NCBI GenBank assembly: GCA_902800055.1
Contig: CADCCW010000003.1
Location: forward strand, 3,376-67,375
Source of the DNA: an uncultured bacterium
Lineage (GTDB): Bacteria; Verrucomicrobiota; Kiritimatiellia; RFP12; UBA1067
Direction of reading: 5' to 3'
Length of the DNA: 64,000 bases
In this document: in pieces, positions 30,123-48,229 of the stretch
Position numbering within the stretch: the first letter of the stretch is position 1
Layout: every line of letters begins with the position of its first letter
Made by a program: the position numbers and the translations under genes
Notes under the pieces: model-generated
Seen by the model: the letters and a program-made list of their open reading frames with translations, nothing else
What the model was told of the DNA's origin: nothing
The model's database searches: none

Positions 30123-31628
30123 TTACTTCAAGTTGTCCTTGATGTAGCGGCGGTCGGCTTCGGAGAACTTGTGCAGGACCGCCCGGATGCGGCGGCCTTT
30201 CTCCGTCTCAAGAGTGATCGACTTGCCGTCTTTCGCGGTGTCTATCCATTTCGCCTTGATGACACCGCCTTTGTGGTCGTGCCAGAGGCGGAACTGCGGC
30301 TCAGGTTTTGTCGTCGCTGGCGCTGGCACTGCCACTGTCGTTAGCGTTGTATTGGTGGCTGGCACGACGGTTTCAGCTGCCTTTGCAGGGGTGGCATTGG
30401 TCGTCACGGCAACTGGTGCTGCGTTGGTGGCGGGCGTTGGCAGCGGAATTGGCAAGTCATTCTTGCTGAAGGTTGCCAGTTTTGAGATCATGCGCATGCA
30501 GGATGCGCTGATGCATCCTTGAGGTAGATATTCGTTGGCGAAGGCGATGGTGAGCGCGAGCAGCAGCGCGAGCAGGAAAACGCGGCGGACAACTGGCGTG
30601 CCTCTGCGCTTCGCCGATTTGCGGCGCTTGGCGCCGGCGTACTTTTTGCCGCGGCGCTGCTTTGACTCTGCTTCGTGGCGGTCGAGGGCGGCCTCCAGCA
30701 CGCCGATGTCGCGCGAGCGGTCCTCGCCGGTGATGGCAGTGGCGCGGACGACGTCGGCGAGCAGGCGGGAGAACCTGCGCACACGCGACGAGTAGGCGCT
30801 GTCGCCGGAGATGGGGGCGTGGACGGCTTCGCGTCCGTCGGCGTAGGCGTCGAGGTCCTCGCGGAGCGCGGAGAGCTCCTTGACGAGCTCGTCCGCGTCG
30901 CCGTAGGTCTGGCGCGCGAACTCGCGCATGGCCGGCAAGATGCCGTCGGTCTTGAAGCCTTCGGCGGGGCGTCCGTCCGCATCGGTGGCGCTCACGGACG
31001 CAATCTCCACCACGGGAATACCAGGGGCGACGGCGCGGATGCGCGGCCAGTGCGCGGCGAAGACTGCTGCTGGTCCGCCTCCGGCGGCGAGCGCGTCGCG
31101 GTAGCGGTCGGCCTGGGTGAGTCCGATGACGACGCCGGCGCCGGGCAGGCGCTCGCGGATGAACTCGATGAGTCCGCGCGTGACCCAGAGCGCCTCGGTG
31201 CTGCGCTCGAACTCGGCGTCGGCCACGGCCACGTCGTCGCGCAGCAGTTCCTTGAGGCTGACGAGGAGGATGACGAAGTCCGCGGCGGCGAGGTAGTCCA
31301 TCAGCTCCTTTACCGCGGCCTGGCGTCGGGACGAGCCCTCTTCCTCGCGGAAGGCGGCGCGGAAGGTTTCGCCGCCGAACTCGAGCATGGAGATGTCGGC
31401 TAGGGTCTCGCCTTTGGAATCGCGCAGCGACCATTCCAGCGCGATGGTGCGCCCTGGGTTGGTGGCGGGAGGCCATTGGCGGAGCGTGCGCAGCTGGCGG
31501 TGCGCGAAGGCCGCAAAGCGGTTGGAAGCGGAGTTTTCGGGGACGAGATTGGGGTAGAAGTCGGTCAGGGCGGACATGAAGACCGTCTTGCCGCTGGCTT
31601 CGCAGCCGACTATCGCGATTCGCGCCAT
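30123..31628 (-). CDS. membrane-anchored P-loop GTPase with SHD1 domain
   Basis: A 501-residue protein, last gene of the pil-LRR operon. Residues 1-240 form a GTPase-like domain: P-loop GCEASGKT (8-15), a G3-like LEFGGE near 82-87 in which Glu replaces the usual Asp, G4 TQAD (171-174) and a G5-like SVSA (211-214). A basic stretch (about 325-345) precedes a single transmembrane segment at about 349-365. A Pro/Thr/Ala-rich linker follows (about 393-444). The C-terminal 55 residues (RLWHDHKGG to the end) match SHD1, a small module common in PVC proteins. The GTPase would be cytoplasmic and SHD1 periplasmic. The client is unknown; genetic linkage points to the partner, the LRR protein or the pilus machine. 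Confidence 0.75.
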   Translation of the reverse strand: MARIAIVGCEASGKTVFMSALTDFYPNLVPENSASNRFAAFAHRQLRTLRQWPPATNPGRTIALEWSLRDSKGETLADISMLEFGGETFRAAFREEEGSSRRQAAVKELMDYLAAADFVILLVSLKELLRDDVAVADAEFERSTEALWVTRGLIEFIRERLPGAGVVIGLTQADRYRDALAAGGGPAAVFAAHWPRIRAVAPGIPVVEIASVSATDADGRPAEGFKTDGILPAMREFARQTYGDADELVKELSALREDLDAYADGREAVHAPISGDSAYSSRVRRFSRLLADVVRATAITGEDRSRDIGVLEAALDRHEAESKQRRGKKYAGAKRRKSAKRRGTPVVRRVFLLALLLALTIAFANEYLPQGCISASCMRMISKLATFSKNDLPIPLPTPATNAAPVAVTTNATPAKAAETVVPATNTTLTTVAVPAPATTKPEPQFRLWHDHKGGVIKAKWIDTAKDGKSITLETEKGRRIRAVLHKFSEADRRYIKDNLK

Positions 31629-31636
31629 GGTGGTTT

Positions 31637-32206
31637 TCAGGAGTTGCCGCCGGGCTTGTGCCAGGGGGAGGTGGTTACTTTGGCCGCGCCATTGTCCTTC
31701 ACGAGGAAGAGCCAGCGGTCGGCGAGGTGCGCGTGGCGGGCGAGGAGGTCGCCGGCGGAGTGGAGGTCGAAGTCGTCGAGCTCGTTGCGGCAGAGGAGGC
31801 GTCCCGGGGCGTCGATGGCGACCGCGGCGGACTCAGGTCCGGCGTAGGCGATGCTCGTCGGCGGCTCGTGGTTTGGGACGCGGAAGAAATCGTCCGCGAG
31901 CAGCGCGGCGAAGTCGATGTGGGAGGCGTCGGTGCAGGGGACGAAGGCGAAGGCGGCGTAGTCGGCGTCGCGTCCTTCGGAGTCCCAGGCGCGGGCGCGC
32001 ATGAGCGAGAACGCGGCGGCGGTCTTGCCGTCCGAGGCGATGCCAATCGCCGGCGCGCCGTCATCCGCGAACGCGTCGCGTCCGGCGGTGGCGATGCGAT
32101 ATAGCCCGTCCAGAGTCTCCCGTCCGATCCCCGCAGGCTCCGTCGACCAGTCGTAGCCGCGGCCGGCGGTGAACACTGAGACGGGGATGTGGACCGGAGC
32201 TGCCAT
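31637..32206 (-). CDS. GTPase-linked partner protein, GAP1-like?
   Basis: A 189-residue protein without signal peptide or membrane segment. The opening VHIPVSVFTAGRGYDWSTEPAG, together with a following FSLMRARAWDSEGRDADYAAFAFV region, is faintly reminiscent of GTPase-associated (GAP1-like) proteins paired with bacterial conflict-system GTPases; this is a weak resemblance. It lies 9 nt after the LRR gene and 8 nt before the GTPase, so co-translation and physical partnership with the GTPase are plausible. Otherwise unrecognised. Confidence 0.45.
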   Translation of the reverse strand: MAAPVHIPVSVFTAGRGYDWSTEPAGIGRETLDGLYRIATAGRDAFADDGAPAIGIASDGKTAAAFSLMRARAWDSEGRDADYAAFAFVPCTDASHIDFAALLADDFFRVPNHEPPTSIAYAGPESAAVAIDAPGRLLCRNELDDFDLHSAGDLLARHAHLADRWLFLVKDNGAAKVTTSPWHKPGGNS

Positions 32207-32215: not shown

Positions 32216-35200
32216 CTACCAGAGTTGGAAGAGCTGGCACCAGCCGCCGACAAGGTTGGCTTTGGGCGGAATGTACACAAGCGCGGAAGGGCCGCTGAGC
32301 AATTGCGTGGAGCCGGAGACGGAAATTGTGCGGCCGTTGTCGCCTTCGACGCTGCCAGACCATTTCACCTTGCCGTTCGCCGCAAGCTTGAACGTGAATC
32401 CGTCGACTTTGATTGTGGAGTTGGCCGCGATGTCGCCGCGTTTCCAGGTGTTTTGTTCCAGCATGGCGGTCATCCCCGGCAGCTCGAGGCTCAGCTGCCC
32501 GGCGCCGTCGTACGCGGAGAGCGCGAAGGGGACATCGACCGTCTGCCTGTTGACGCGCATGGTCGCGGTGCCGTAGAAGGTGTTCGATTCCTCGTCGAAG
32601 TCGGAGAATCCCTTGGCGGTGTAGCTCAGCTTCAGCGACTTCTTGCCGTCGTCGGACGGAACCATGATCTTGCCCGAGAGCTTGCCGGCGGCGGAGATGG
32701 TCGCAGTGGCGGAGCCGATTTCCGTGGTGCCGTCGAAGCAGACGCCATTGTACTTTCCGCCGACCCAGCTGGGCATGGCAAGCACCTTGATGGCGAACGA
32801 GACGGATTCGTTCAGCTTGTTCTTCTTGTTGGTGACCTTGAGGACGACGGTCTTTGCGCTTTGGGCGCGAGAAGGGGTGCCCTCGATTGCGTAGATGTAC
32901 TTGACGACCTTCCTGCCTTCCTTTACTGCCGTCTTCACCAGTTTTACGCCGGCGGGAAGTCCCTTGGCGGTCACGGTGCTGAGCGAGCCGTCAGGAGCAT
33001 TTCCGACGCTTAGCGGAATTGACAGCTTGATTCCGACATGGGCTTCGACCACGTCGCCTTCCTCAATAGCGGATAGGTTGCCATTGGCGTCCACTAGATA
33101 TGGCCTGACGCCAAATCCGTCGTCGGTGTCATCCAAGGCGTCGTCAGGCTCGTCGACCGGTGGATTGACCACGACCACTGGTGGAGCCTGCACGGTCGTG
33201 TTCTTTGAGGTGAAGTGGCTGTTGTAGAAGGCGAGATTGCTGTAGGAGATGCCAGTGGGAATGCTAATGGGTATTGCGTACGAGATGGTTTTGTCGCTGT
33301 CGCTGGCGGTGTGGTAGAGGCAGACGGAGCCTTTGTAGAATCCAGCCTGGGAGTAGATGTACGAATAGGAGTGGCCGCCGGTCGAGTCGGTGCCAACCGG
33401 AAGTGTGAACGTACCCGTCTTGCGCTCTGTCTCCTTGCCGTCAACTTTTACGACCAGCGTTCCCGTGACGGTTGATCCCTCCGGCATCAGTCCGCAGTCG
33501 GTGAAAGCGTAGTCGGAGATGGCGGTTACGCCGCTGAGAATCATGTCAATGGAAAGCGACGGGGAGAATTCAGTCGCTGTGGTGGAAGTGCTGGTGCCGT
33601 AGGATTTTAGCTCGATGATCTGGTTCGGCTCTGTGGTCATGGTGTCGGGGTCGGTGCTGCCGATAACCTCCACGATTTCCTTTTTTGCGGCGGTTTCCTT
33701 TTCGGTGAAGGTCGCGGCAAAGCTGGTTTTCGCCGGCACCTTGACGAGCGTCCTGCCGTCCTTTGAGTACAGAATGCCGTTGCGTGAGGAGTAGGCCGGG
33801 TTTTTGGCGTCCACGCTGAAGGATTCGAGCGAAGTGCACCCGTTGAATGCGTCTGCGGCGATGGTGGTGATCGACGCGGGAATGTTGATGGCCGTAATCT
33901 CGCTGCAGCCCTCGAACGCGCCGTCGGGGATTGAGGTTATGGTATAGGTATTTCCGTCAATCGTGATTTCGCCTGGCACCGTCACCTCGCCGCTAGTCGA
34001 GGCGGGAATGATCGGCGTTGCGCCGTTGGCTCCCAGTTCGGCCTTGTTGTCGTAGACGGTAACGTCCCAGACAGTTCCGTCGCTGTCGGTATATTTGTCA
34101 GCCTCACCAGGCGCAAGTTCAATTTTTCGGTTGCGCCAGAGGCCTGAGGCTGGAAGGGCGCTGGACGTGGGGTCGCCGTCCCAGCCGAGCGAGCCGTCCA
34201 GGACGGTGATCACAAGCGTTGCCGGCGTGTCGGCGAGGATGCCGTCCGCTGCGGCGGGCGCGTTGCCGAGGAACTTGACGTTTGCGAGCGCCATGCAGTC
34301 CGCGAATGCATCGTCATTGATTGTTGTCGTCGTCTCTGGGACTGTGAGCGTCTCCGATGACATCGGCACTGCGTAGAGAGTCTTGAAGCCTTTGTCGTAG
34401 AGTGCGCCGTCGTCGGAGAGCGAGAAGTGCTGGCTGTCGCTGGATACGGAAACCGTCGCCGCCGGGCCGCAGCCGTAGAGGACATTGCCGTCGATGGACG
34501 AGACCGAGGCGGGAATGGAGACTGCACCGACGTTGGTCCCATTGAATGGATGGCGGCCGATAGTCCTGAGGCTGTTCCCGAGCGTGACGGACGCGAGCGA
34601 GGTGCAGTTGGAGAAAGCGCCGTCTCCGATCCACTCGTAGGTGGCGGGTATTGACACTCCAGTTATGCCACGTTGGTTGGCGATCGCGCCGTTGCCGACG
34701 CCCTTGACGGTCAGTGCGCCGATGGTTGCCGGGAAGGAGAGGGCGGTGATGGCGTTTTCCGAAGACACGGATAAAATCTCGGCAACGCCATCCTCGACGA
34801 CGCGATATTTCCAGACCACGCCAGCGGCATCGGTGTAGGTAAGGGGTTTGTCGCCAGGATCGACGTCGAAGTTTATGGTTCTGTTCTTCCAGGTTGGTTC
34901 GGTGAAGCCCTCGGCTTCGCTTGACGCATAGCTGGTAAGTGCTTCAGGCGTGCCGATGTATAGGTCGTCCGGCGCCGTTGGTGCGTTGCCGGCGTAAGTC
35001 ACCGAGAGCAGAGAGTTGCAACCTGTAAACGCGTCGGAGCCAATTTCGGTCACGGTGGCGGGGATGGTTAGCGCCGAGATGCTGGCGCATTTGGCGAATG
35101 CGTTTGTCCCTATGTATTCAAGTGATTCGGGCAAGAGGACAGACTCAAGGTTTTTGCAGCCGGCAAACGCCTCGTTTCTTATTGCGGTAACAGTTGAGGG

Positions 35201-38200
35201 AACGGCAATGCTTGATTCCTCGAGATTGGCCGGCGCACCGACAAGAATTTTACCTTGTTTGTCATAGAGAATGTTTCCAGCCACAGAGAAATTGGGACAT
35301 GATCCGTCGATTGAGACTGTTGTTAGGAAATCGCATCCGGCAAGTGGGTTGCCGTCTGTCTCCAGAAGAGTATAAGGCAGGGTTATTGTCGATGCTGGCA
35401 CTCCCTCAAATGGGTGTTTGCCGAGTCTCGTTATTCCACTGGGCAATTCGATAACCCCTTTGTCTTGAGTAGTTGTCAAGAATCCCAGCCCGCAGATGTC
35501 AATGATGGCTGTGCAGTTCGAGAATGCAAAATCGCCGATTTCCTGAATAGACGACGGAATGCCAACATAGGTGAGGGAAGTGCAGCCAGAAAATGCAGAG
35601 GAACCGATTGAAGTGACCGTGAACCCTCTGATAATCGTGGGAATCTCCAGAGTATACCGAACGTCGTTGGCGTCTACATCAACATTTGGTACTCCTCTGG
35701 TTGATTTCGGTTCAATGCCAGTAATGGTGACATTGTTGTTGATGATTTTGAATTTCCATGTAATGCCGTTCGCGTCGGTGTAGTCCAGAACAGGCGGATC
35801 TTCTCCGGAGATCACCATGACTTTACGGTCTTTCCAGATCTCTCCGTCTGTCCATCCGTTTGTTGTGAGCGCATAGCTGACGAGTGGGTCTGGAGTACCG
35901 GCGTAGATGTTGTCTGCTGCGTTGGGCTTGGTGCTGTTGTAGAAGATTGATTCGAGATGGGGCGTGGATTCCGGCGCGGAGAGCCCGGGCCAGATGCCGG
36001 CGACATTGAACGCGCCATCGCCGATTGTTGTTACGGAGGCTGGGATGTTGAGATAAGTCAGACGGTGGCAGCCGAAGAACGCATCCGCGGCGATGTTCGT
36101 CACGGTGTTTGGAATCGTGACCGTTCCCTCTGCGCGCGTCGGACAGACGTAAAGCTTCGTCATGTCGCGGTTGTAGAGGACACCGTCGTCGGAATACTTG
36201 AAATGTGAGCTGTCGTCGATGGAGATTGTCGAAGTGAAAAGCGTTCCTGCCGAAATGTTGCCTCCCATGTCGAGGAGTGAGTCGGGAACTTTGATTTCGC
36301 GGATAATTGTGTTGACAAAGGCGCGGGCTCCAATGTAGCGAACGCCGTATGGGATATCAATGCTGGCAAGCGAGGTGCAGTTGGAGAACGCATTGTCGCC
36401 GATCCACTCGTAAGTGTCGGGAATTGAGATTGATGTGATGCCGCGCAGGTTGGCGAGTGCCCCGTCGCCGACCCCCTTGACGATATAGCCCCCAAGAGTT
36501 TGTGGAAGTGAGATGGATAGGATTGGCGAATTAGGATCGTCGCTAACCACCGCAGGATTTCCGTCATCACGGTAGATCTCGGCAACATCGTCGTTTACGC
36601 GGAAGTACCATGTAATGGCTCCGTCGTCGTAATGGAGGATAGTGCTGTCGGGCGAGGTGGATATCACAACAATTGGCCGATCCTCCCAGAGGACAGGTGA
36701 GAAGCCTGTTGCAGTGTCCAACACAAAGCTTGTGAGGTTGGTTTGTGTGCCGGCATAGAGTGTGTTGTCCGTTGCCGGTGCATCGCCGTCATACGTAATC
36801 TTAAGAAGAGCCGTGCAGTTTGTGAATGGGGAATGCCCAATTTCTATCACGGAGGCGGGGATGGTTAGCGCCGATATGCCGGTGCACTTGGTGAATGCGT
36901 TTGTTCCAATGTATTCAAGAGAGTCGGGCAGGAGGATCGACCTAAGGTTTTCGCAACCATACAGCGCCTCGGAATTGATTTTTCGCGCTGAGTTCAGGAA
37001 GTGGATTGAAGAGCTGCTGTAGTTTGCCGGGACTGCGACGACTTCAGTTGACTGCTTGTTGTAGATAACGTTGTCGGATGAAACAAACTTAGGGTTGTTT
37101 TCGTCGACTTCAACAGCGGCGATGAATGGCATCCCGGCTAATGGATTGCCTTCGATTTCGATTGTTGTGCGAGGAATAATCACCGCGACTGACTTTAGAT
37201 CTTCAAATGGATGGTATCCAAGCGTAGTTATGTTGTCGGGGATTTCAATTGTAGCATCCTCGCCAAAAGAATCAGTTCCGCGAATTCTGCTAATGGCCGC
37301 GCAGCCTTTGAAGGCATAATCTCCGATTGTAGTAATCGATGGCGGAATGTCGATTCGAGAGAGGTTCTTGCAGTTTAAAAACGCGTAGTCGCCGATTTTG
37401 GTCACGACATAGCCGTTAATTGATGAGGGCAATAATAGGTTATCCCCACGAGTTACCGAACTGCGATTGCTGTCGGTGTATGTCGGGTCAATTACAGCCT
37501 CTCCATCATTGTAAAGCTCGGCTTCGCCATTGACGATTCTGTAATACCAGGTGAGACCATAGCTGTCTTTGAATTTCAGCACCGGCGGATTTGTGGCGGT
37601 GATTTTTGTGACCTTGCGACCTTTCCATGGATCGATCCAGTCTTCGGAAAACACATAGCTGACTAGGCCAGTTGGGGCTCCGTCGTAGATGTCGTCGGCT
37701 GCGTCAGGAACTGACCCGTTATAGAACACGGACAGAAGTTTTGGCGTGGATTCTGGCGCGGAGAGCCCTGGCCAGATGCCGGCGACATTGAATGCGCCCT
37801 CGCCGATCGTTGTGACGGAGGCGGGGATATTGAGGTAGGTCAGGCGATGGCAGCCGAAGAATGCGTCTGTGCAGATGTTGGTAAGCGTTTCCGGGAGAAC
37901 AATCGTCCCTTCTGCGCGTGTTGGGCAGGCGTAGAGCTTGGTCATGTCGCGGTTGTAGAGGACGCCGTCATCGAAGTAGACGAAGTGCGAGCTGTCGCCG
38001 ATGTTGAGCGACATGGCGAAGATTGAACCAGCGGAGATGTTGCCGCGCATGTCAAGGAGGGAGTCGGGCACGGCGAGCTCTCGAACGATTGTGTTGAGAA
38101 ACACCCGCGCGCCAATGTAGCGGATGCCATAGGTAAGGGTCACGTTCTCAAGTGAAGTGCAGTTTCTGAACGCCTCGTCGCCAATTTCAAGTATGGTGTT

Positions 38201-41200
38201 GGGAACAGTAGCCGAAAGCAGTGCCGGGTTGTCCGCAATGGCGCCCGCCGCAATGTTCGTGACCGTATACAGATTGCCGTCGACGAATACGATGTTCTTG
38301 ATGGTGACATCCCCGACTGCGTTTTCGAGCTTTTTGAGTGTGGCTGTCAGAGGCGTGCTGTTTGTGTGCAGCTCATAAGTCCAAAACATTTCATAGTCGA
38401 TGTCCCCGACGGTATTTGTTTCGGAGATTATGATATTTGCGATGTCAATGCCGCCGACGATGACTATCGGGCGTCCCTTCCAGGTGCCGCTTGTGAAGCC
38501 CGCGTTCTCCTTGGCGTAACTTGTCATCGCCGCGGGCGTGTCGGCGAATATCGTATCCGCCGCAGCCGGCGCGTCGCCGAGGAACGTGGTCTTCTTCAGG
38601 ATCGCGCATCCGGCGAACGCGTCGCCGGCAATCGAGGTTACCGTCGCCGGGACAGTGATTTCCGCCGAGCGCGGCGGAACTGCGAGAAGTGTGGTCTTCG
38701 AGTGGTCGTAGAGGCAGCCGGCCTCGTCGGCCGAGAAGTTGATGTTTCCTTCGTCGACTGTGAAGCCGGTGAAGCGCGAACATCCGGCTGCGGGATTGCC
38801 GTCGATCGCCTCGACGTAGGCCGGGACCGCGAGCGTCGGCACCTTTGTTCCCGCGAAAGGCTCCACGCCGATGGTTTCGATCGTGGACGGCAGTGTCACG
38901 GCGGTGACATACCTGCAGCCGTATAGGGCTCGGTCGCCGAGTCCGACGACGGTGTATTGCTTGCCGCTGCCGGAGTCGGTGACCTGGGCCGGGACGTCGA
39001 CTGCGCCGATGTGGTTCGTGTCGAGAAGGGCGCTGTCGCCGCCGTTGTAGAGGATGGCGACGTCGCCGTTGAGAATCCACTTCCAGGTGCCGTCGGTGTT
39101 GGTGTCGACGACGACCTCCGCGGGGATGATGACTATTTGGCGTCCCTTCCAGGTGCCGCTTGTGAAGCCCGCGTTCTCCTTGGCGTAACTTGTCATCGCG
39201 GCGGGCGTGTCGGCGAAGACGTCGTCCGCCGCGGTCGGCGCGTTGCCGAGGAAGGTCGCCTTCTTGAGCCTGATGCACCCGGCGAAGCACTCGTCGGCGA
39301 GCTCGGCGACGGTCGCCGGGAGCTCGATCTCCTCAGCGGTCATCGGGTAGGCGAAGAGGGTGGTGAAGTCCTTGTCGTAGAGCGCGCCATCGGCGGACAC
39401 CGCGAAGCGCGGGTTGTCGTCGCCGATGGAGAGCGACACCGACGGGTCGCAGCCGTAGAGGATGTTGCCGTTGATCGAGGAGACGGTGTCGGGAATGGCG
39501 ATGGTCTCGATTGCGGTGCCGGCAAAGGGGTGCCGCCCGATGCTGCGCAGGCCGTGGTTGAGCTTCACGTCCATGAGGACGTTGCAGTCGGCGAACGCCT
39601 CGTTGCCGAGGTTGGTGATGGCGTTGGGGATCTCAACGGAGAGAAGTCCGGTTGAGTTCGCGAAGAGGCGGTCCCCAAGTGACTTTACGGTGAGCGTGCC
39701 GAGAGAGCTGATGAAATCTGACGGCACGGTGTAGTTGCCGATCGGCTTGGGCGAGATCTCGAGAATTTCGACGCCTCTTTGGGCGAGAACCTTTAGCGTG
39801 TGGGCGTACTGCGTTGTCCCATTGGTCGTTATGCAGACGAAGATGTCACCTTCCTTAAGTTCTGCCTCGGCCGAGACGTCGAGGTTCGCGATGCTGCGCC
39901 CGTACTCGTCGTCGGACGGCCATTTGCCTGATGTGGGGAGGGCTGTAGAACTGGGGTCGCCGTTCCAGCCCTTTGTTCCTTGGGCAACGTAGATCTGCAG
40001 CCCTACCGGCGCGCCGCGGAAGAGCTGCGGGTCCTTGCCTGGAGCATTGCCGGAGAACCCGATGAACTCCAGCGACCCGCAGCCCTCGAAGAGCCCTGCT
40101 CCCTCAAGCGCGGTGACAGACGTCGGAAATACGAGAGATGCGAGCCTCGGCATATCGCTGAACGCGCATTCTCCGACGCTGGCAATATTGCTGGGCAGCA
40201 GCAGCGCGCGCAGGCGGAAGCAGCCGTCAAATGCCTCGGGTCCGATTCGCTCCGTAGTCGTGGCGATAGAGGCAGACTCTTTCCTCGCAGGGCAGCCGAC
40301 GAGCGTGCGGACGTCCTTGTCGTAGAGAATGCCGTTGACGACGGTATAGTAGGAGTTGTCGAGCGAAATCGAGACGGTGAGGAGCGTGTCGCATCTTGCA
40401 AGCGGATTTCCGGCCAGAGAGCGGAGCGAATCCGGCAGGGCAAGCGCCGTGATCGAAGAGCCGACGAAGGGGCGATAGCCGATTTCCTTTGTTCCTGTCG
40501 GAAGCGTAACGGAGCTTAGGCTTGAGCAGTTCGCGAAGGCGTAGTCGCCGATTCTGCGGAGTGTCTTGGGCATCTCGACTTCCGAGATTCCCGAGCATCC
40601 GCTGAAGGCGTAGTCGCCGATGAGTGTGACTGGGTAGCCGCCAAGGGAGGACGGGACGACGAGCTTGCCGTCCGAAGTCCATTCGAAGGTTGCCGGGTTG
40701 TAGGTGTATGTTTCCGAAGTCGAAGTCGGGATCGCGGCGATGCCGCCGTTGTAGATCTCTGCTTCGCCGTTGATGACGCGATAGAACCAGGTCACGTTTC
40801 CGGCCTTGTCGGAGACGATTCCGGACGGCTGCTCCGCGGCGGATTCGACTACATTGAAGACGTCCCATGGAGCGGCGTCCCAGCCAGTCGTGCCTGGTTT
40901 CTTGTAGAAGCAGAGGTTGGCGTTGGCGCCGTCGATGATGGAGGCGTCGGCGGCCGGGGCATTTCCTTCGAACGAAACGGAAGTCAGGCGCGTGCAGCCG
41001 AGAAACGCCTGTGCGCCAATGGTCTCGACGGTGGCGGGGACGGCCAGCGCGGCGAGACGGTGGCAGCTTGCGAATGCCTTGATGCCAATTTCTTTCAGCG
41101 TTGCGGGAAACTGGATGGTTTCGATGCGCGGCGGGCAGGCGAGAAGTCGCGTGTGGTCCTTGTCGTAGAGTGCGCCGGCGGATGATGCTAACCAGGGGTT

Positions 41201-41611
41201 GTTTTCGTCGACAGAAATCTGTGAAAGGATTGTGCAACCGGTGAACAGTCCTGTCCCGAGCGTCTCGACCGTTTCGGGGATGGAGATGGATGTGATGCCG
41301 ATCTGGTTTGCGAATGTGCCATCGGCGATTTTCTTGACGATGAGAGGAGTTCCGTCTGAACAGACGAGCGACAGCGGGACGGAAATGTCCCCGATGAGGT
41401 ACTTGCCATCTGTCGTTGTGTCGTTTTTTATCGTGACGCCGGTGATGACGGCGTAGGTTATGCCGTCGCTGGTCTCCCGTTCGAATTCCCAGACGAGGTT
41501 GAATCCTGGTGCCGGGGTGTCGGCTTGTCCATAGTTCACATTGGAAGTTTCCTCGGCCAGGACTGGGATAGCGAGGATTGCGGCGAGAAAGCAGGCGATG
41601 AATTTTTCCAT
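32216..41611 (-). CDS. giant secreted BspA-like leucine-rich-repeat protein
   Basis: A 3131-residue exported protein. Signal peptide at residues 1-19. About nine modules of LRR_5/BspA-type repeats follow, with the recurring pattern IPxxVxxIGxxAFxGCxxLxxV. Each module closes with a GNAPxAxDxIYxGTPxxLxSY.....W(K/R)xR segment and several open with an ITWYYRIVNGEAEIYxDG phrase. Near residues 2850-2945 is an Ig-like putative-Ig stretch, and the C-terminal 180 residues form a beta-rich domain (GKYNGVCFDG, GKLSGKI). No sortase, PEP-CTERM or T9SS tail is evident. It is encoded 18 nt after the secretin, SD AAAGGAG, implying it may be a client of that machine. BspA-like proteins usually mediate adhesion. 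Confidence 0.85.
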   Translation of the reverse strand: MEKFIACFLAAILAIPVLAEETSNVNYGQADTPAPGFNLVWEFERETSDGITYAVITGVTIKNDTTTDGKYLIGDISVPLSLVCSDGTPLIVKKIADGTFANQIGITSISIPETVETLGTGLFTGCTILSQISVDENNPWLASSAGALYDKDHTRLLACPPRIETIQFPATLKEIGIKAFASCHRLAALAVPATVETIGAQAFLGCTRLTSVSFEGNAPAADASIIDGANANLCFYKKPGTTGWDAAPWDVFNVVESAAEQPSGIVSDKAGNVTWFYRVINGEAEIYNGGIAAIPTSTSETYTYNPATFEWTSDGKLVVPSSLGGYPVTLIGDYAFSGCSGISEVEMPKTLRRIGDYAFANCSSLSSVTLPTGTKEIGYRPFVGSSITALALPDSLRSLAGNPLARCDTLLTVSISLDNSYYTVVNGILYDKDVRTLVGCPARKESASIATTTERIGPEAFDGCFRLRALLLPSNIASVGECAFSDMPRLASLVFPTSVTALEGAGLFEGCGSLEFIGFSGNAPGKDPQLFRGAPVGLQIYVAQGTKGWNGDPSSTALPTSGKWPSDDEYGRSIANLDVSAEAELKEGDIFVCITTNGTTQYAHTLKVLAQRGVEILEISPKPIGNYTVPSDFISSLGTLTVKSLGDRLFANSTGLLSVEIPNAITNLGNEAFADCNVLMDVKLNHGLRSIGRHPFAGTAIETIAIPDTVSSINGNILYGCDPSVSLSIGDDNPRFAVSADGALYDKDFTTLFAYPMTAEEIELPATVAELADECFAGCIRLKKATFLGNAPTAADDVFADTPAAMTSYAKENAGFTSGTWKGRQIVIIPAEVVVDTNTDGTWKWILNGDVAILYNGGDSALLDTNHIGAVDVPAQVTDSGSGKQYTVVGLGDRALYGCRYVTAVTLPSTIETIGVEPFAGTKVPTLAVPAYVEAIDGNPAAGCSRFTGFTVDEGNINFSADEAGCLYDHSKTTLLAVPPRSAEITVPATVTSIAGDAFAGCAILKKTTFLGDAPAAADTIFADTPAAMTSYAKENAGFTSGTWKGRPIVIVGGIDIANIIISETNTVGDIDYEMFWTYELHTNSTPLTATLKKLENAVGDVTIKNIVFVDGNLYTVTNIAAGAIADNPALLSATVPNTILEIGDEAFRNCTSLENVTLTYGIRYIGARVFLNTIVRELAVPDSLLDMRGNISAGSIFAMSLNIGDSSHFVYFDDGVLYNRDMTKLYACPTRAEGTIVLPETLTNICTDAFFGCHRLTYLNIPASVTTIGEGAFNVAGIWPGLSAPESTPKLLSVFYNGSVPDAADDIYDGAPTGLVSYVFSEDWIDPWKGRKVTKITATNPPVLKFKDSYGLTWYYRIVNGEAELYNDGEAVIDPTYTDSNRSSVTRGDNLLLPSSINGYVVTKIGDYAFLNCKNLSRIDIPPSITTIGDYAFKGCAAISRIRGTDSFGEDATIEIPDNITTLGYHPFEDLKSVAVIIPRTTIEIEGNPLAGMPFIAAVEVDENNPKFVSSDNVIYNKQSTEVVAVPANYSSSSIHFLNSARKINSEALYGCENLRSILLPDSLEYIGTNAFTKCTGISALTIPASVIEIGHSPFTNCTALLKITYDGDAPATDNTLYAGTQTNLTSFVLDTATGFSPVLWEDRPIVVISTSPDSTILHYDDGAITWYFRVNDDVAEIYRDDGNPAVVSDDPNSPILSISLPQTLGGYIVKGVGDGALANLRGITSISIPDTYEWIGDNAFSNCTSLASIDIPYGVRYIGARAFVNTIIREIKVPDSLLDMGGNISAGTLFTSTISIDDSSHFKYSDDGVLYNRDMTKLYVCPTRAEGTVTIPNTVTNIAADAFFGCHRLTYLNIPASVTTIGDGAFNVAGIWPGLSAPESTPHLESIFYNSTKPNAADNIYAGTPDPLVSYALTTNGWTDGEIWKDRKVMVISGEDPPVLDYTDANGITWKFKIINNNVTITGIEPKSTRGVPNVDVDANDVRYTLEIPTIIRGFTVTSIGSSAFSGCTSLTYVGIPSSIQEIGDFAFSNCTAIIDICGLGFLTTTQDKGVIELPSGITRLGKHPFEGVPASTITLPYTLLETDGNPLAGCDFLTTVSIDGSCPNFSVAGNILYDKQGKILVGAPANLEESSIAVPSTVTAIRNEAFAGCKNLESVLLPESLEYIGTNAFAKCASISALTIPATVTEIGSDAFTGCNSLLSVTYAGNAPTAPDDLYIGTPEALTSYASSEAEGFTEPTWKNRTINFDVDPGDKPLTYTDAAGVVWKYRVVEDGVAEILSVSSENAITALSFPATIGALTVKGVGNGAIANQRGITGVSIPATYEWIGDGAFSNCTSLASVTLGNSLRTIGRHPFNGTNVGAVSIPASVSSIDGNVLYGCGPAATVSVSSDSQHFSLSDDGALYDKGFKTLYAVPMSSETLTVPETTTTINDDAFADCMALANVKFLGNAPAAADGILADTPATLVITVLDGSLGWDGDPTSSALPASGLWRNRKIELAPGEADKYTDSDGTVWDVTVYDNKAELGANGATPIIPASTSGEVTVPGEITIDGNTYTITSIPDGAFEGCSEITAINIPASITTIAADAFNGCTSLESFSVDAKNPAYSSRNGILYSKDGRTLVKVPAKTSFAATFTEKETAAKKEIVEVIGSTDPDTMTTEPNQIIELKSYGTSTSTTATEFSPSLSIDMILSGVTAISDYAFTDCGLMPEGSTVTGTLVVKVDGKETERKTGTFTLPVGTDSTGGHSYSYIYSQAGFYKGSVCLYHTASDSDKTISYAIPISIPTGISYSNLAFYNSHFTSKNTTVQAPPVVVVNPPVDEPDDALDDTDDGFGVRPYLVDANGNLSAIEEGDVVEAHVGIKLSIPLSVGNAPDGSLSTVTAKGLPAGVKLVKTAVKEGRKVVKYIYAIEGTPSRAQSAKTVVLKVTNKKNKLNESVSFAIKVLAMPSWVGGKYNGVCFDGTTEIGSATATISAAGKLSGKIMVPSDDGKKSLKLSYTAKGFSDFDEESNTFYGTATMRVNRQTVDVPFALSAYDGAGQLSLELPGMTAMLEQNTWKRGDIAANSTIKVDGFTFKLAANGKVKWSGSVEGDNGRTISVSGSTQLLSGPSALVYIPPKANLVGGWCQLFQLW
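35961..36230. repeat. LRR-gene internal duplication A, copy 1
   Basis: A block strongly similar at DNA level to 37743-38012, offset 1782 bp (594 codons, in frame). It covers the SAPESTPxLxS through DGVLYNRDMTKLY segment of two modules. Confidence 0.8.
37743..38012. repeat. LRR-gene internal duplication A, copy 2
   Basis: Partner of 35961-36230. Long exact runs are interrupted mainly at codon third positions, suggesting an older duplication than pair B. Confidence 0.8.
38461..38548. repeat. LRR-gene internal duplication B, copy 1
   Basis: Matches 39130-39217 with about three differences; offset 669 bp (223 codons). Encodes the DTPAAMTSYAKENAGFTSG module end. Confidence 0.88.
39130..39217. 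repeat. LRR-gene internal duplication B, copy 2
   Basis: Partner of 38461-38548. The near identity indicates recent duplication or gene conversion within the repeat array. Confidence 0.88.
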
Positions 41612-41629: not shown

Positions 41630-43612
41630 TTACTGGTTGGCGGAGGGCGTGACTGTGACACTGCCGTAGTTAGTGTCGTTCTTGGCGGCGGCCTTCTTGG
41701 CGTCGTGGTTGCGCCGGTCGAATGAGCGCAGATCGAGCGAGAGCAGGTCGGCGGCGCCGTCGGGGCGGTCGCCCGGCTCGAGGCGGCGGCCCTCGACGTA
41801 TTCGCGGCCGATGACGGCGTTCTTGGGCAGCCCGATGTCCTTCGGCAGGGCGTCGGGTCTGGCAATGCCGACGGTGACGCAGATGATGATCTCGTACTGC
41901 ACTTTCTGGCGGCTCTTGCTGCCGAAGAGCTTTTGCCCAATCCACGGCAGACGGCGCAGATAGGGGATGCCGTCGTCGACGTCCTCCTCCTCGGTCTTGG
42001 AGAGGCCGCCGATGACTGCGGTCGAGCCGTCCTTCATCGTGAACTGGGTGGAGATGCTCTTCATCTTGATGATGGGGAACTTGCCGTAGGAGCTGTCGGC
42101 CCCCATGTTGCTGCCGTTGGCGACGCTGTAGTACTCGTCAACGTAGGAGATCGACGGGATGATTTCGACGGAGATGAGCCCGTCCGGCGAAATGCGCGGC
42201 TTGACGGTGAGCTCGATGCCGTAGGAGAAGAACGCGGAGCCGGCGAAGAGGCCGCGGTCTTTGTCGCCGGGGATCTGCTGGAGCTTGGCGGAGTAGTCGA
42301 GGTAGGAGTTCTCGGAGCTGGTGTTGCGCTGGGAGGTGAGCTCGATGTAGGGGTATTTGGTGGTCATGTCGACCTTGGCTTCCTTGCCGTTGGAGACGAT
42401 GACCTTGGGGTTGGAGAATATCTTTGCGTCCTCGAGGCTCTCGAACGCGCTGATCGCGAGCCGGAAGTCGTCCACCGAAAGCGTGCCCGAGAAGGTGCGG
42501 TCGGCGCTGGCGGTGCGGGTGGACGTGCGCGAGTTGCCGGAGGAGCCGTTGTGCCCGCGCGTCCGCTCGGACGACGAGGAGCTCGACAGGCCGTCGGACT
42601 TGTCTGCGCTCGAGCTGTAGGAGGAGCCGGACTCGCTTGCCTTGGATCCAGTCGCGGAGTCGGTCGAGCCGTTGCGGGAGGAACTGGAACTGGACGAGCC
42701 GCTGTCGGTCACGGAGAGCGAGCCGTCCTTGGACATGGTTACGGACTTGTTGACGCCGAAGTCGACCTTGGCGGCGACGTCCTTGGTGGAGACGCCCCAG
42801 CTCTTGAGCTGGCTCCAGTCAAAGCCGAGGCTGTGCATCGCCTCGCTGGAGAGCTCGATGAACCTGGCCTCGATGTAGATCTGGTCGACGGCCTTGTCGA
42901 CCGAGCGGATGATCGACTCGCAGTCGGAGATGACCTTCTCCGGGGCGGTGACTACCACCACGTTGGCGCCGGGGAAGGCGTTGGCGATCTTCTGGACGGT
43001 CTTGCCGTCCTTGCCCTTGACGGCGTAGTTTTCGTTGAAGAGCGCGGCGAGTTCTTCGGCGGAGGCGTGGTTGAGCTGGAAGCTCTTGGTGACGATCGGG
43101 ATCGCCATCTTGTCCTCGTTTACGAAGTAGATGTTGTCGCGGCGCTCGAGGCGGAAGCCGCGTGCGTTGAGGATCGACTGGAGGGCGTCGAGCCACCTGA
43201 CGTGCTTGAGCTCGGCGCTGACGCGGCGCTGGAGGTTGGTGGAGTCATCGGAGATGATGTTGGCCCGCGTGGTCTTGCGGAACTGCCTGAGGACGTCGGC
43301 GAGGGTGGCTTCGTCGCAGGAGATGTCGACGAACTCGACGTCCTCGTTGTTGGTGCGGATCTGCGGGCGCTTCGCGGCTTCCGCGGTATCGTCGATTTCC
43401 TCGAGGTCGATTTCGTCCACGTCTTCCTCGCGCAGCGCGGCGGACGGTTCCTCCGCCGGCACGGCGTTGGTGGGCGCCGCGGCGGACTCTGCCGCGATGA
43501 CGGCGTTGGTGGATTCGTCGGCCGTGTCGCCGGCGATCTGGGCGAGCGCGATCATGGCTGCGGACGCGGAGGCGATCGTTGCCGCCGTGATTGCGAGGTG
43601 TTGTCTGGTCAT
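41630..43612 (-). CDS. pilQ: secretin, PilQ/GspD family
   Basis: A 660-residue outer-membrane secretin subunit. A signal-like N-terminus (1-27) precedes an acidic region (40-80), N-domains (about 90-250) and the secretin core to about 610. The core signature VIGGLSKTEEEDVDDGIPYLRRLPWIG is present. An unusual Ser-rich insert of about 75 residues sits at 298-372, between the last N-domain and the beta-barrel. The start overlaps the pilP-like stop by 4 nt. It would form the gate through which the pilus or secreted client passes. PilQ naming is by operon context; GspD is an alternative. Confidence 0.9.
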   Translation of the reverse strand: MTRQHLAITAATIASASAAMIALAQIAGDTADESTNAVIAAESAAAPTNAVPAEEPSAALREEDVDEIDLEEIDDTAEAAKRPQIRTNNEDVEFVDISCDEATLADVLRQFRKTTRANIISDDSTNLQRRVSAELKHVRWLDALQSILNARGFRLERRDNIYFVNEDKMAIPIVTKSFQLNHASAEELAALFNENYAVKGKDGKTVQKIANAFPGANVVVVTAPEKVISDCESIIRSVDKAVDQIYIEARFIELSSEAMHSLGFDWSQLKSWGVSTKDVAAKVDFGVNKSVTMSKDGSLSVTDSGSSSSSSSRNGSTDSATGSKASESGSSYSSSADKSDGLSSSSSSERTRGHNGSSGNSRTSTRTASADRTFSGTLSVDDFRLAISAFESLEDAKIFSNPKVIVSNGKEAKVDMTTKYPYIELTSQRNTSSENSYLDYSAKLQQIPGDKDRGLFAGSAFFSYGIELTVKPRISPDGLISVEIIPSISYVDEYYSVANGSNMGADSSYGKFPIIKMKSISTQFTMKDGSTAVIGGLSKTEEEDVDDGIPYLRRLPWIGQKLFGSKSRQKVQYEIIICVTVGIARPDALPKDIGLPKNAVIGREYVEGRRLEPGDRPDGAADLLSLDLRSFDRRNHDAKKAAAKNDTNYGSVTVTPSANQ

Positions 43613-44097
43613 TTGGTTTCTCCTTTGTCCTCGGAGGGTTCTTCAAGTTCACGCATTCTGATTCGCTGCAGCCTGAGCGTGCCGGTCTCGGTGAGGCCCT
43701 TGACGCGCCAGGTGAAGCGCAGTCCGTCGACGTTGGCCGAGACGAGGTCGCCGTCGGCGTAGATGTTGCCGTTGATGGTGACGGCCTGCCGCGAGTTGGC
43801 GCCGGAGCCGACGCGGAGGGTGCCGCCGATCTTCAGCGACTTGCGCGCGGCGATCCAGAGGCGGCCTTCGCCCTTGTCGTTGGACGCGGCCTCGGCGGCC
43901 TCGGCTGCGGCGATCGCCTCGGGGTTGACGCTGGTTTCGGCGTCCTTGCGCGTCTCCTCCTCGGTGGGCGCGCTCACTTCGAAACGCGGATCGGCGGAGA
44001 TCGGTTCGCGCTCGCCGTTGTAGCCGACGGGCCAGAAGGGGTTGCGCAGGGGAATGGTCGCCGCCAGGGCGGCCGCAATCAGAAGGGGAGTCGTCAT
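43609..44097 (-). CDS. PilP/GspC-like periplasmic protein
   Basis: A 162-residue protein with an N-terminal signal/anchor segment (1-20), an acidic Glu/Ala-rich middle and a small beta domain (about 85-150) with the pattern AVTINGNIYADGDLVSAN, as in pilotin-like PilP or GspB/GspC homology regions. Its place between pilO and the secretin, with 4-nt overlaps on both sides, supports a role coupling the inner-membrane platform to the secretin. Similarity is weak; the position carries most of the inference. Confidence 0.6.
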   Translation of the reverse strand: MTTPLLIAAALAATIPLRNPFWPVGYNGEREPISADPRFEVSAPTEEETRKDAETSVNPEAIAAAEAAEAASNDKGEGRLWIAARKSLKIGGTLRVGSGANSRQAVTINGNIYADGDLVSANVDGLRFTWRVKGLTETGTLRLQRIRMRELEEPSEDKGETK

Positions 44098-44684
44098 TTC
44101 TTCGTCCTCCCTCCCTTGACCGGCCACTCGAAGACGAATTCGACGCGTTGTGCGAGCGGGTCCTGCTGGGCGGTCACCGACATCGCCTCAAGCGCGACGA
44201 GCGGGAACTCCTTTTCCACTCGCAGCAGGAACGAGACGGCGGCCTGGTAGCTGCCGCGGCAGACGAGGCGGATTGGCCGCCGCGCGAAGAGCTGGACTGG
44301 CAGGCGCTTCGGCACCGGCAGCGCGACGAGCGGCAGTTCCTCGTATACGGTCTCGGAAAGGCCGGCGCCGGCGGCGAGCGGGTCGAGCAGTTTCTTCGCG
44401 CCCATGGCGTAGGACTCGAGCGAGGGCTGGAGGATCGCTGCGCGGAACTCGTCCAGCCCGGCATTGATTTTTTCGAGCCGCTCCTTGACCTTGTCGGCGT
44501 CGGAGAGGTTGTGCATCATAATCTCGTGGCGCGTGCGCACCTCCTCGAGCTCTTTCTTGGCGCGGACGAGATCCGCCTCCGACGGCTCGACGGCAAAGAG
44601 GTAGATGCACGCCGCGGCGGCGCCGAAGACGGCGGTGATGAGTAGCGAGCGCTTCGCGTTGGGGGCCATGTTCTGGAGATTCAT
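44094..44684 (-). CDS. pilO: PilO-like pilus assembly protein
   Basis: A 196-residue bitopic inner-membrane protein: a transmembrane helix at about 13-33, a coiled coil at about 38-80 and a ferredoxin-like periplasmic domain to the end. This is the PilO/GspM-type layout. In type IV pili PilN and PilO form a heterodimer connecting PilM to the secretin. It overlaps both neighbours by 4 nt. Confidence 0.78.
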   Translation of the reverse strand: MNLQNMAPNAKRSLLITAVFGAAAACIYLFAVEPSEADLVRAKKELEEVRTRHEIMMHNLSDADKVKERLEKINAGLDEFRAAILQPSLESYAMGAKKLLDPLAAGAGLSETVYEELPLVALPVPKRLPVQLFARRPIRLVCRGSYQAAVSFLLRVEKEFPLVALEAMSVTAQQDPLAQRVEFVFEWPVKGGRTKK

Positions 44685-45379
44685 TTCGCGAACCTCCTGT
44701 CCTTGAGCCGGTATTCGATCTCGAACGCGAGCATTCGCGAGCCTTCGCCGCGGCGCGAAGTGTCCTGGCGGATGGAACGCACCTTGGGACTCTGGTCGCT
44801 TCGCCGCGGATCCTTGACGATGGAGATGAAGTTGGTGAAGGTGTCGGACTCAAGCGACTCCATCAGCGAGACGATCGGCGTCTCCTTTGGCGTCCGCCCG
44901 GCGAGGACGAGCGAAACCGACTCGACGTTGCCCGTCGGCCCCCAAAGCGGGATGTACGGCCGCCCGGGCAGCACGCCGGGTGGAACGAGCGACTGCGGCG
45001 GCGGCGGCGGAATCTCAAGCCGCGTGAGCTGGATCTTGAGCGGCATCACCTCGGCGAGCGCGGTGAAGACGTCGCCGTAGCTGCGGCAGCCGCCGCGGTA
45101 GTACTCGAGTTGCTCAAGTCCAGACTCGAGTTCGTTGGCGAGGTTCATCTTCTCCATCACGTCGGCGTAGGCGGCCTTGCGTGAGTCAATCTCGGATTGG
45201 AGCGTCTGGATGGACGACCTTGCAATCAGCACACGCCCGAGCAGCGAACCCCACCACACGACGGCCCCGGCGACCGCGAACATCGCGAGCACCGGCAGCA
45301 TCACCCGGATGCGCACCGGCGAGGAGCTGACCCGCTCGGAGGTTTTCAGCAGGTTGAGGTGATAGGCCTTGGCGCTCAT
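44681..45379 (-). CDS. pilN: PilN-like pilus assembly protein
   Basis: A 232-residue protein. The short cytoplasmic N-terminus HLNLLKTSE (about 7-15) resembles the PilN peptide that docks in PilM. A transmembrane helix at about 26-46 and a coiled coil (50-90) follow, then a periplasmic domain containing a Pro run near 125-140. The start at 45379 overlaps the pilM stop (ATGA); the longer frame upstream lies inside pilM and is rejected. Confidence 0.78.
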   Translation of the reverse strand: MSAKAYHLNLLKTSERVSSSPVRIRVMLPVLAMFAVAGAVVWWGSLLGRVLIARSSIQTLQSEIDSRKAAYADVMEKMNLANELESGLEQLEYYRGGCRSYGDVFTALAEVMPLKIQLTRLEIPPPPPQSLVPPGVLPGRPYIPLWGPTGNVESVSLVLAGRTPKETPIVSLMESLESDTFTNFISIVKDPRRSDQSPKVRSIRQDTSRRGEGSRMLAFEIEYRLKDRRFAK

Positions 45380-46569
45380 GCGTCGGCCTCCTCTCCCATC
45401 AGCGCCAGCGCCGCCCCGAGCGCGCCGGCGTAGGTCACGGCCTCCGCGCCCTTTGGCGCCTCGCCCTCGATGCCGTCGAAAACCTCCGGCGCCGCGAGCT
45501 TCATGTGCGCGCGCTCCTCGGCGATTGCCGAAAAGTAGCCGGCGCCGGCCGGAAGCCCGAAGACGAAGGCGGCGGGCGACTCGAGGCGTAGCTTGTCCGC
45601 CAGGTAGTCGCGCGAGACGGCGAGTTCGTCCACGATCGGCGCTACGATCGGCTCCAGCACCGGGCGGGGGTCGATGAGCGCGTCGTTGAGCACGCTCTCC
45701 ACCATCTCCGCGTCCAGCCCTAGTCCTTTGCGCACCGCGTCGAAGATGCCGATGCGCCCGGGCGCGCCGCGGCAGGTGCGCCAGAGGACGAGGTCGCCGC
45801 CGCGGTAGCCGGCGATGTGCACGAGGCTGTCCTCCACGAAAAGCGCAATTGCGTTGCCGCCAGCCGCGGCGAAGGCGCTTTGGCGCAGAATCGACGCCGC
45901 CAGCGCCGAGGTACGCGGCTGGATTGACGCGGCAGTGGGACGGCGGCCTTCCGGCAGCAGGCGCGAAAGCCACAAGAGTTGGTACTCGGGGATTGTCGCT
46001 TCCATAACGAAGTCGCCGTCGATGGGCATCTTCTTCATCACGAAGCGGGTGCCGCCGTTGGAAATCGGCACACCCGGCTCGATTGCGGCGGTGGACGCAG
46101 TTGGTTGCGCGGCGGTGGCGGTCTGCGCCGGCGCGGACTCGGCGGCGGGCTTGTTTGTGCGGCGGATGCCGATGCGCTTCGACTTCGAGGCATCGGCAGT
46201 TCCGCCGCCAGCTTCGTCCTGGCGGTGCGAGCCGGCGGAGAAGTCGGCCTTGAACGCCTCCAGCGTGGTCTGGCCGACGAAGAGCGCGGCGGACGAGACG
46301 GCGAGCGCGGCATGCGGCGACTGGAAGTGCTGCGGCAGCGACCAGGTGCAGCTCTTCGACGCCTGTTCCCACGACTCCGGCAACGCGTTCGCCGGCGGTG
46401 GCACGAGCCCTGCGGCGATGACGTGGAGCGCGCCTTTCTTCTCCGCGAGGCGCACGGCGGGACAGCCGCCATCGACGCCGGAGAAGAGGTCGACGCCGAC
46501 CACGTCTGAAAGGCGACGGCGCCCGCCGCCGATCTCGATCGTCTTTGTTTTAGTCAACTGCAACTTCAT
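45376..46569 (-). CDS. pilM: PilM-like actin-fold ATPase
   Basis: A 397-residue cytoplasmic protein heading the operon. The ASKHA-like (FtsA/PilM) organisation is suggested by paired beta-strand/glycine motifs (VVGVDLFSG near 24-32, NAIALFVEDSLVHIAGYRGG around 245-265 and TYAGALGAALAL at the end). A low-complexity Ala/Thr/Gln stretch at about 120-165 interrupts the fold. Sequence similarity is weak, but position before pilN-pilO-secretin is decisive. Leaderless expression is predicted. Confidence 0.72.
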   Translation of the reverse strand: MKLQLTKTKTIEIGGGRRRLSDVVGVDLFSGVDGGCPAVRLAEKKGALHVIAAGLVPPPANALPESWEQASKSCTWSLPQHFQSPHAALAVSSAALFVGQTTLEAFKADFSAGSHRQDEAGGGTADASKSKRIGIRRTNKPAAESAPAQTATAAQPTASTAAIEPGVPISNGGTRFVMKKMPIDGDFVMEATIPEYQLLWLSRLLPEGRRPTAASIQPRTSALAASILRQSAFAAAGGNAIALFVEDSLVHIAGYRGGDLVLWRTCRGAPGRIGIFDAVRKGLGLDAEMVESVLNDALIDPRPVLEPIVAPIVDELAVSRDYLADKLRLESPAAFVFGLPAGAGYFSAIAEERAHMKLAAPEVFDGIEGEAPKGAEAVTYAGALGAALALMGEEADA

Positions 46570-46662: not shown

Positions 46663-48018
46663 ATGCTTAGGATTCTCATAGTCGACGACGAACCGCGCAT
46701 TCTGCTGCTCATGAAGGGGCTGCTGAAGGCGAACGGGTATGAAGTCGAGACCGCGAAAGACGGCGCCGCGGCGCTTGACGCCGTCAAGGCCGGTGGCATT
46801 GACATCGTCATCACCGACCTGCGCATGCAGCCGATGGACGGGATGGCGCTCTTCCGCGAAGTACGCGCGATAAGCCCCGACATCCCAGTCATTCTGCTTA
46901 CCGCCTACGCGAGCGTGGAGACGGCGATCGACGCGATGAAGAGCGGCATCTTCGACTACCTCACCAAGCCGTTCAAGGTGGAGGACATGCTCGCGTGCCT
47001 TAAACGCGCTGAGGACAAGATCCGCCGCTCGGCGGCGGTTGCGGCCGACTCTGGCCCGCTGCGCTACCGCTTCGAGAACTTCATCGCCAACTCGCCGGCG
47101 ATGAAAGAGGTGTGCGAGACCATCCAGAAGGTGGCGCCGACGGCGGCGACGGTGCTCATCAACGGCGAGAGCGGCACTGGCAAGGAAGTGGTCGCGCGCG
47201 CGATTCACCTTTCCTCCACGCGCGCGAAGCGCCCGTGGGTGGCGGTGAACTGCGCGGCGATTCCGTCGGAGCTGCTTGAAAGCGAGATGTTCGGCCACGT
47301 CAAGGGTGCTTTCACCGGCGCGGTGGCGGACAAGGAAGGGCTCTTTGAGACGGCCTCCGGCGGCACGCTCTTTCTTGACGAGATCGCCTCGATGCCGCTC
47401 ATCCTGCAGGGCAAGCTCCTGCGCGCGCTGCAGGAGAAGGAGATCCGCCGCGTCGGCGGCACCAAGGCGATCCCCGTCGACGTGCGCGTCATCGCCGCGT
47501 CCAACTCTAACCTTGAGGAGGCGGTGGTGAAGGGCACGTTCCGCAGCGACCTCTTCTACCGTTTTGCCGTCATCACCATCGACATCCCGCCGCTCCGCAA
47601 ACGGCCCGAGGACATTATGCCGCTCGTCAAGCACTTCATCGCCGGCGAGACTGCGGAAGGCGCGACGCAGCCGACCGTGAGCGACGCGGCGGCCAAGGCG
47701 CTTCTGGCCTATAGCTGGCCTGGGAACGTGCGCGAGCTCGAAAACGCCATCAAGCACGCGCTCACTTTCATGCGCGGCGGCGAAATCACCCCCGGCGACC
47801 TGCCGACCAGAATCACCGAAAACAAAGAAGGGTCGGCTGAGTCGGGCGACGCCTCGGTTGCCTCTGGGCAGAGCGCCTCGCTCAAGTCCTTCCTCAAGCA
47901 GAAGGAACGCGAATACATCGGCCAGATCCTCAGTTCCGTCGGCGGAGACAAGGAAAAGGCTGCGGAAACGCTGAAAGTGAATCTTTCGACGCTTTATCGC
48001 AAGCTTTCTGACGAATAA
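46663..48018 (+). CDS. NtrC-class sigma-54 response regulator (PilR-like)
   Basis: A 451-residue response regulator. Receiver domain 1-120 with the acidic pair D8-D9, phospho-acceptor D52 and K102. The AAA+ domain (about 138-380) has Walker A GESGTGKE at 168-175 and the sigma-54-contacting GAFTGA at 215-220. A Fis-type helix-turn-helix ends the protein (KAAETLKVNLSTLYRKL). It activates sigma-54 promoters after phosphorylation. A matching sigma-54 promoter lies 127 nt downstream in front of the pilin, so a PilR-like role is well supported. No partner histidine kinase is in the window. Confidence 0.94.
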   Translation: MLRILIVDDEPRILLLMKGLLKANGYEVETAKDGAAALDAVKAGGIDIVITDLRMQPMDGMALFREVRAISPDIPVILLTAYASVETAIDAMKSGIFDYLTKPFKVEDMLACLKRAEDKIRRSAAVAADSGPLRYRFENFIANSPAMKEVCETIQKVAPTAATVLINGESGTGKEVVARAIHLSSTRAKRPWVAVNCAAIPSELLESEMFGHVKGAFTGAVADKEGLFETASGGTLFLDEIASMPLILQGKLLRALQEKEIRRVGGTKAIPVDVRVIAASNSNLEEAVVKGTFRSDLFYRFAVITIDIPPLRKRPEDIMPLVKHFIAGETAEGATQPTVSDAAAKALLAYSWPGNVRELENAIKHALTFMRGGEITPGDLPTRITENKEGSAESGDASVASGQSASLKSFLKQKEREYIGQILSSVGGDKEKAAETLKVNLSTLYRKLSDE

Positions 48019-48160: not shown

Positions 48161-48229
48161 TAAATAAATTTTTGCTGTCGGCATGGTGCCGGCGGTAAAT
48201 AAAAACAAAACAAAAAAAGGAACACAACC

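Follow-up and report, generated by a model that had tools for sequence, protein, structure and literature searches.

The window, a 64,000-nucleotide stretch of DNA from a rumen bacterium, carries on its minus strand a two-gene unit joined to an operon of the type IV pilus/type II secretion kind. The first gene of the unit encodes a small partner protein and the second a GTPase, the two open reading frames lying 8 bp apart and each beginning with ATG. The features of the locus are as follows.

30123..31628, minus strand: GTPase gene, 501 aa, with a G domain, helical segment, transmembrane (TM) helix, Pro/Thr-rich linker and SHD1
31584..31607, minus strand: G1/P-loop GCEASGKT, residues 8-15 (sequence, family alignment)
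31368..31382, minus strand: G3 EFGGE, residues 83-87, Glu replacing the usual Asp (family alignment)
31107..31118, minus strand: G4 TQAD, residues 171-174 (family alignment)
30987..30998, minus strand: G5 SVSA, residues 211-214, within ASVSAT (about 210-215; family alignment)
30528..30593, minus strand: TM helix, residues about 346-367, after a Lys/Arg-rich (KRR-rich) stretch
30135..30308, minus strand: SHD1 domain, residues 441-498, predicted periplasmic
31637..32206, minus strand: partner gene, 189 aa, TagF/longin-like predicted fold
31970..31984, minus strand: partner motif D75-S-E-G-R79
32216..41611, minus strand: 3131-aa giant with BspA-type leucine-rich repeats, separating pilQ from the pair
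41630..43612, minus strand: secretin, PilQ/GspD type
43609..46569, minus strand: pilM-pilN-pilO-pilP-like genes, upstream of pilQ in one operon

The original prediction had placed the GTPase and its adjacent partner at 30123-32206, where both open reading frames indeed lie, and had read GCEASGKT, Glu at G3, TQAD and an SxSA-type G5 in the GTPase, each of which we found in the sequence. It had missed that the pair forms the end of the pilMNOPQ operon, in which the junctions from pilP onward are gaps or overlaps ranging from a few bases to 18 bp.

The 501-aa protein combines a TRAFAC-type G domain with one TM helix and a C-terminal SHD1 domain, and is a divergent DO-GTPase (Pfam families DO-GTPase1, PF19975, and DO-GTPase2, PF19993). 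Its match to DO-GTPase1 (E 2e-5, 24.3 bits) falls under the Pfam cut-off of 27 and its match to DO-GTPase2 stands at 0.0066; the orthologs at loci L030 and L031 exceed the DO-GTPase1 cut-off, with 33.1 and 31.4 bits respectively. Searches with the GTPase gave chance matches only among PDB sequences and no match among plasmids. The presence of a G-domain fold had been set beforehand as a test of the original prediction, and the AlphaFold2 model of the protein (mean pLDDT 68, pTM 0.55) contains a predicted Rag/Ras-like G domain, nearest to the Rag/Gtr GTPases (Z 13.7 over 177 residues) and scoring Z 8 or more in 958 of 998 aligned chains.

In PMC7159879, DO-GTPases are presented as TRAFAC GTPases that belong to bacterial conflict systems and have GAP1 as their partner; they often lie near the membrane and in some cases carry extracellular domains after a TM segment, and some psp envelope-stress operons also include a DO-GTPase (PMC11237479). 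The pair shares with the family its TRAFAC-type G domain, a sequence match, membrane association, an extracellular domain past the TM segment and a co-encoded partner. It differs in having Glu rather than Asp at the first G3 position, in its single copy and in its SHD1 C-terminus, and it departs from the described systems in having no recognisable GAP1, no adjoining effector gene and, in some genomes, a pil-operon context, although the presence of GAP1 defines a described DO-GTPase system and not membership of the GTPase family.

A single TM helix followed by a periplasmic SHD1 module had been proposed for the GTPase. The helix and the module were both borne out: the protein has one strong hydrophobic helix, and SHD1, which in the 501-aa protein itself gives E 0.021, under the Pfam cut-off, scores 24.1 and 25.3 bits in the orthologs at L030 and L031, over the cut-off of 23.7. 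The C-terminus moreover matches the solved SHD1 of Sla1 (2hbp) with a TM-score by target of 0.71, at 1.3 Å and 31% identity. The side of the membrane is a different matter, the periplasmic placement of the SHD1 end being suggested by hydropathy and charge under positive-inside topology.

The sequence EFGGE at G3 is present in seven of seven close-clade members (window, L013, L014, L015, L030, L031 and L038), and Asp occupies the position in other family members and in four further DO-GTPase1 proteins of the phylum. The close clade has a support of 100/100 and a long stem in the tree, so that its clade-wide Glu is a fixed lineage feature and not an error or a one-off. A conserved glutamate in Walker B has been described for DO-GTPases in a passage of PMC7159879 that gives no position for it; in the family alignment E87 of xxGE is kept, and the close clade adds a second glutamate, E83, in place of Asp. 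G1, the G4 Asp and G5 are all kept in the clade, and G4 reads [TS]Q-x-D in most family members. The Asp-to-Glu change at G3 and the non-canonical G4 speak against taking GTP hydrolysis by the 501-aa protein for granted.

The partner had been called unrecognised, with a known unrelated enzyme named beforehand as the identity that would speak against the proposed pair. It has no Pfam (up to E 10), NCBIfam or PADLOC match and no match among phages, its profile retrieves nothing from PDB sequences, and it thus matches no such enzyme. The partner family has eight invariant columns over 13 members (A14, G17, W20, G55, D75, R79, Y83 and P111), and the D and R of the D75-R79 motif are invariant in 19 of 19. 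Co-occurrence was assessed by running G-domain and partner-domain profiles on six-frame translations of fetched regions. A partner-domain gene lies beside the GTPase, on the same strand and within 5 kb, at 19 of the 28 loci fetched with the GTPase (18 by profile and L039, which is cut by the contig end, by blastp), and these loci come from several families of the phylum. Of the loci that have no such neighbour, several stop at a contig edge. A GTPase is likewise present at three of five loci fetched for the partner alone. Partner and GTPase genes of the close clade are separated by gaps or overlaps of a few bases, and in distant relatives the partner domain is fused to TM segments.

Both genes are under purifying selection. 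Between the window and L013, the partner has a dN of 0.065 and a dS of 0.235 and the GTPase a dN of 0.070 and a dS of 0.310, and the G domain, which has the lowest dN within the GTPase protein, gives a dN of 0.013 and a dS of 0.27 between the window and L014. Since orthologs keep the genes adjacent and dN/dS is about 0.2-0.3, chance is excluded. Co-occurrence, selection, topology and fold all support a conserved two-gene G-protein module at the membrane. The claim that this module is new needs narrowing: the conserved membrane pair stands, but its GTPase is a divergent DO-GTPase, and the novelty is only partial because that family and its TM and extracellular domains have already been described (PMC7159879). 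What is new is a minimal DO-GTPase pair anchored in the membrane and marked by a G3 signature of its own, an SHD1 end and a pil-linked form, and a small DO-GTPase partner that is without known relatives by sequence.

A faint likeness of this partner to GAP1 had also been suggested. As a recognisable GAP1 the partner was rejected by Pfam profiles, with no match up to E 10 and no GAP1 match in 13 family members. In comparisons with GAP1-N2, hhalign gave a probability under 1% against 32 domains, the local score was equalled by 13 of 60 shuffles and an ungapped profile test did no better than shuffled columns. A short D-x3-R motif followed by a predicted strand does exist in 31 of 32 GAP1-N2 domains and 19 of 19 partners, but it has no statistical support. 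GAP1 (GAP1-N2, PF20013; GAP1-M, PF20014) is likewise encoded beside a DO-GTPase and shares this motif; it is built, however, of GAP1-N, -M and -C domains, whereas the partner is a single 189-aa unit matching none of GAP1-N1, -N2 or -M, and the order here is partner then GTPase. Members of GAP1-N1 (PF20012) and TagF_N (PF09867) were not found in 194 genomes of the phylum, and as neither family was found in control genomes either, that search does not establish their absence from the phylum.

Unforeseen by the original prediction was a likeness of the partner, in predicted fold, to TagF and to longin domains. The partner model is of modest confidence, with a mean pLDDT of 65.8 and a pTM of 0.69, and was built from an alignment of four sequences, the other four of five models being much worse. 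TagF 9t0n tops both the Foldseek search (E 1.4e-3, prob 1.00) and the Z ranking (7.2 over 165 residues at 4.5 Å), 6iz8 also being among the top-ranked TagF structures, and TagF is followed by the longin domains of the Lokiarchaeal Roadblock-Longin, Lst4, FLCN, GATOR1 and C9orf72-SMCR8 complexes. A Z below 8 may reflect simply a common arrangement, and we therefore treat this likeness as a lead only. With that reservation, the model points to the partner as a possible G-protein regulator, shaped like TagF or like components of eukaryotic GTPase-regulating complexes, and sequence searches (profile, hhalign and PDB sequences) yielded no link from it to any known regulator.

TagF, a T6SS repressor (9t0n, 6iz8, 2qnu), is the best structural match across the whole partner model. 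Its residues S79, D81 and R85 are conserved and required for Fha binding (PMC5995506), and the D81-R85 spacing is that of D75-R79 in the partner. It differs in that TagF_N (PF09867) is absent among the partner's Pfam matches up to E 10, in that its known target is Fha and not a GTPase, and in context, no T6SS genes having been seen in the operon of the pair. The longin-domain regulators (GATOR1, FLCN-FNIP, C9orf72-SMCR8, Lst4 and Lokiarchaeal Roadblock-Longin) rank second in fold likeness, and some of them act on Rag/Gtr GTPases, which the 501-aa GTPase resembles most closely in fold; these regulators differ from the partner in their middling Z, in belonging to eukaryotic or archaeal complexes with further domains and in showing no sequence similarity to it. 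Longin-domain GAPs put an arginine finger, Arg147 in SMCR8, into the GTPase active site (PMC8213707), and by analogy we hypothesize that R79 could serve the partner as such a finger. It is conceivable, if doubtful, that the partner, GAP1-N and TagF branch from a single longin-like superfamily of bacteria that regulates G domains and has an exposed D-x3-R loop in common. The pair would then be the bacterial equivalent of the switch formed by Rag GTPases and longin GAPs, and some lineages would have recruited it to the type IV pilus/type II secretion operon.

The attachment to the pil operon differs between genomes. At L013, L014 and L015 the partner directly follows pilQ with a 4-bp overlap and the BspA-type gene is missing there, which makes that gene most simply an addition in the lineage of the window. 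Among 14 operons with an orthologous PilQ, the pair is present in four (window, G012, G264 and G014), a BspA-like gene stands instead in three (G030, G572 and G571), and seven have neither within the DNA seen; at L030, L031, L034 and L038 there are no pil genes next to the pair. Since the slot after pilQ is variable, with the pair as an accessory found there in some cases, we discarded a fixed PilQ-pair system as a general rule. Several genomes of the genus have BspA-like leucine-rich-repeat proteins of very unequal lengths after pilQ (window 32216-41611; L142 9452-12700; L143 3423-7007; L149 35-3547), marking a variable cargo slot at the operon's end. The window also has a response regulator of the NtrC type and a gene for a type IV pilin (46663-48610) that run divergently from the pil operon, and this layout recurs in several genomes of the genus.

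More distant loci vary in architecture. GTPase relatives carry Sel1 repeats, FGE-sulfatase domains or DnaJ-type zinc motifs at their C-termini, the FGE-sulfatase fusions lying at L039 502-2763, L040 7702-9924 and L041 8410-10062; this domain has likewise been listed among the effectors of MoxR-vWA systems and of some GAP1-N2 systems. One genome (G298; L044-L046) has at least five GTPase paralogs, some in tandem and one with Sel1 repeats. At L043 (3-10992) a Ser/Thr kinase precedes a partner-like protein and two GTPases, and the locus also includes an AAA ATPase and a helicase-nuclease gene, the latter farther upstream; at L032 (5874-13030) a partner-like protein and then two GTPases come after a run of same-strand genes; these two loci possibly represent an undescribed multi-gene system. 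At L033 (12203-12721) a DUF805 membrane protein, a possible third component, directly follows the partner-like gene.

We propose that the pair is a GTPase switch with its dedicated regulator at the inner membrane, a reading whose chances we put at about even. By sequence and prediction, the cytoplasmic DO-GTPase-family G domain is joined through helices to the TM helix, with the flexible linker and SHD1 predicted to lie beyond the membrane. The small cytoplasmic partner would bind the G domain and set its nucleotide state. In this the partner would most likely resemble a GAP or read the state of the G domain, in the manner of longin/roadblock proteins, and its invariant loop G17/W20 together with D75-x3-R79 is the candidate contact. 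SHD1 would touch an envelope ligand or envelope protein, coupling the state of the envelope to that of the G domain. The likely client in pil-linked lineages would be the pilus/secretion machine, and control by the pair of the pilus or the secretin is plausible; stand-alone pairs would act on another client or in trans.

This switch overlaps with three other readings that we weighed against it. The pair could be dedicated to the pilMNOPQ machine, as a factor for its assembly or control, comparable with MglA/MglB at polar type IV pili or TagF in a secretion system, as its place in the same operon and the tight pilQ-partner junctions of L013-L015 would suggest. MglA and its roadblock GAP MglB, likewise a bacterial GTPase with a small regulator, control type IV pili in Myxococcus (PMC9481161). 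However, MglA is soluble and Ras-like, without TM helix or SHD1, and MglB is a roadblock protein, whereas the fold search for the partner was led by TagF and then longin. With ten of the 14 orthologous pil operons managing without the pair, and pairs elsewhere having no pil genes beside them, we think this dedicated role unlikely. Somewhat less improbable, though still unlikely, is a reduced DO-GTPase conflict (defence-type) system in which the G domain would be the sensor switch, the partner would replace GAP1 and the variable C-terminus would be effector or sensor. It draws on DO-GTPase membership, the family being described as conflict systems in PMC7159879, on the variety of C-termini among relatives (SHD1 included), and on the kinase, ATPase and helicase-nuclease gene, the last a few genes upstream, around the distant relative at L043.

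Against a defence role, PADLOC matched neither the window GTPase nor the partner, neither the distant partner-like proteins tested nor the L043 GTPase, and gave for the FGE-fused GTPase of L040 a marginal match only (mad8, E 0.0096). In the window no GAP1-N/M is recognised and the genes flanking the pair include no effector, and the close clade mostly retains SHD1 and in some genomes sits in a housekeeping-type pil operon. The fixed Glu at G3 and the TQAD at G4 would also suit a pseudo-GTPase that holds nucleotide or partner permanently as a membrane scaffold, but the retention of G1, the G4 Asp and G5 and the low dN of the G domain argue the other way, and we consider such a scaffold the most improbable of these readings.

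Taken as a GTPase-regulator switch, the pair bears on a family predicted from genome context, for which our literature search found no reported biochemistry. Its minimal two-gene form, with one small partner, would make the GTPase-partner step testable without the large GAP1 and effectors, and the pilMNOPQ link shows where a phenotype might be sought. Should the partner prove longin/TagF-like, bacterial regulator families would be connected through it with a fold by which archaea and eukaryotes control GTPases, and this would suggest a G-domain logic behind TagF.
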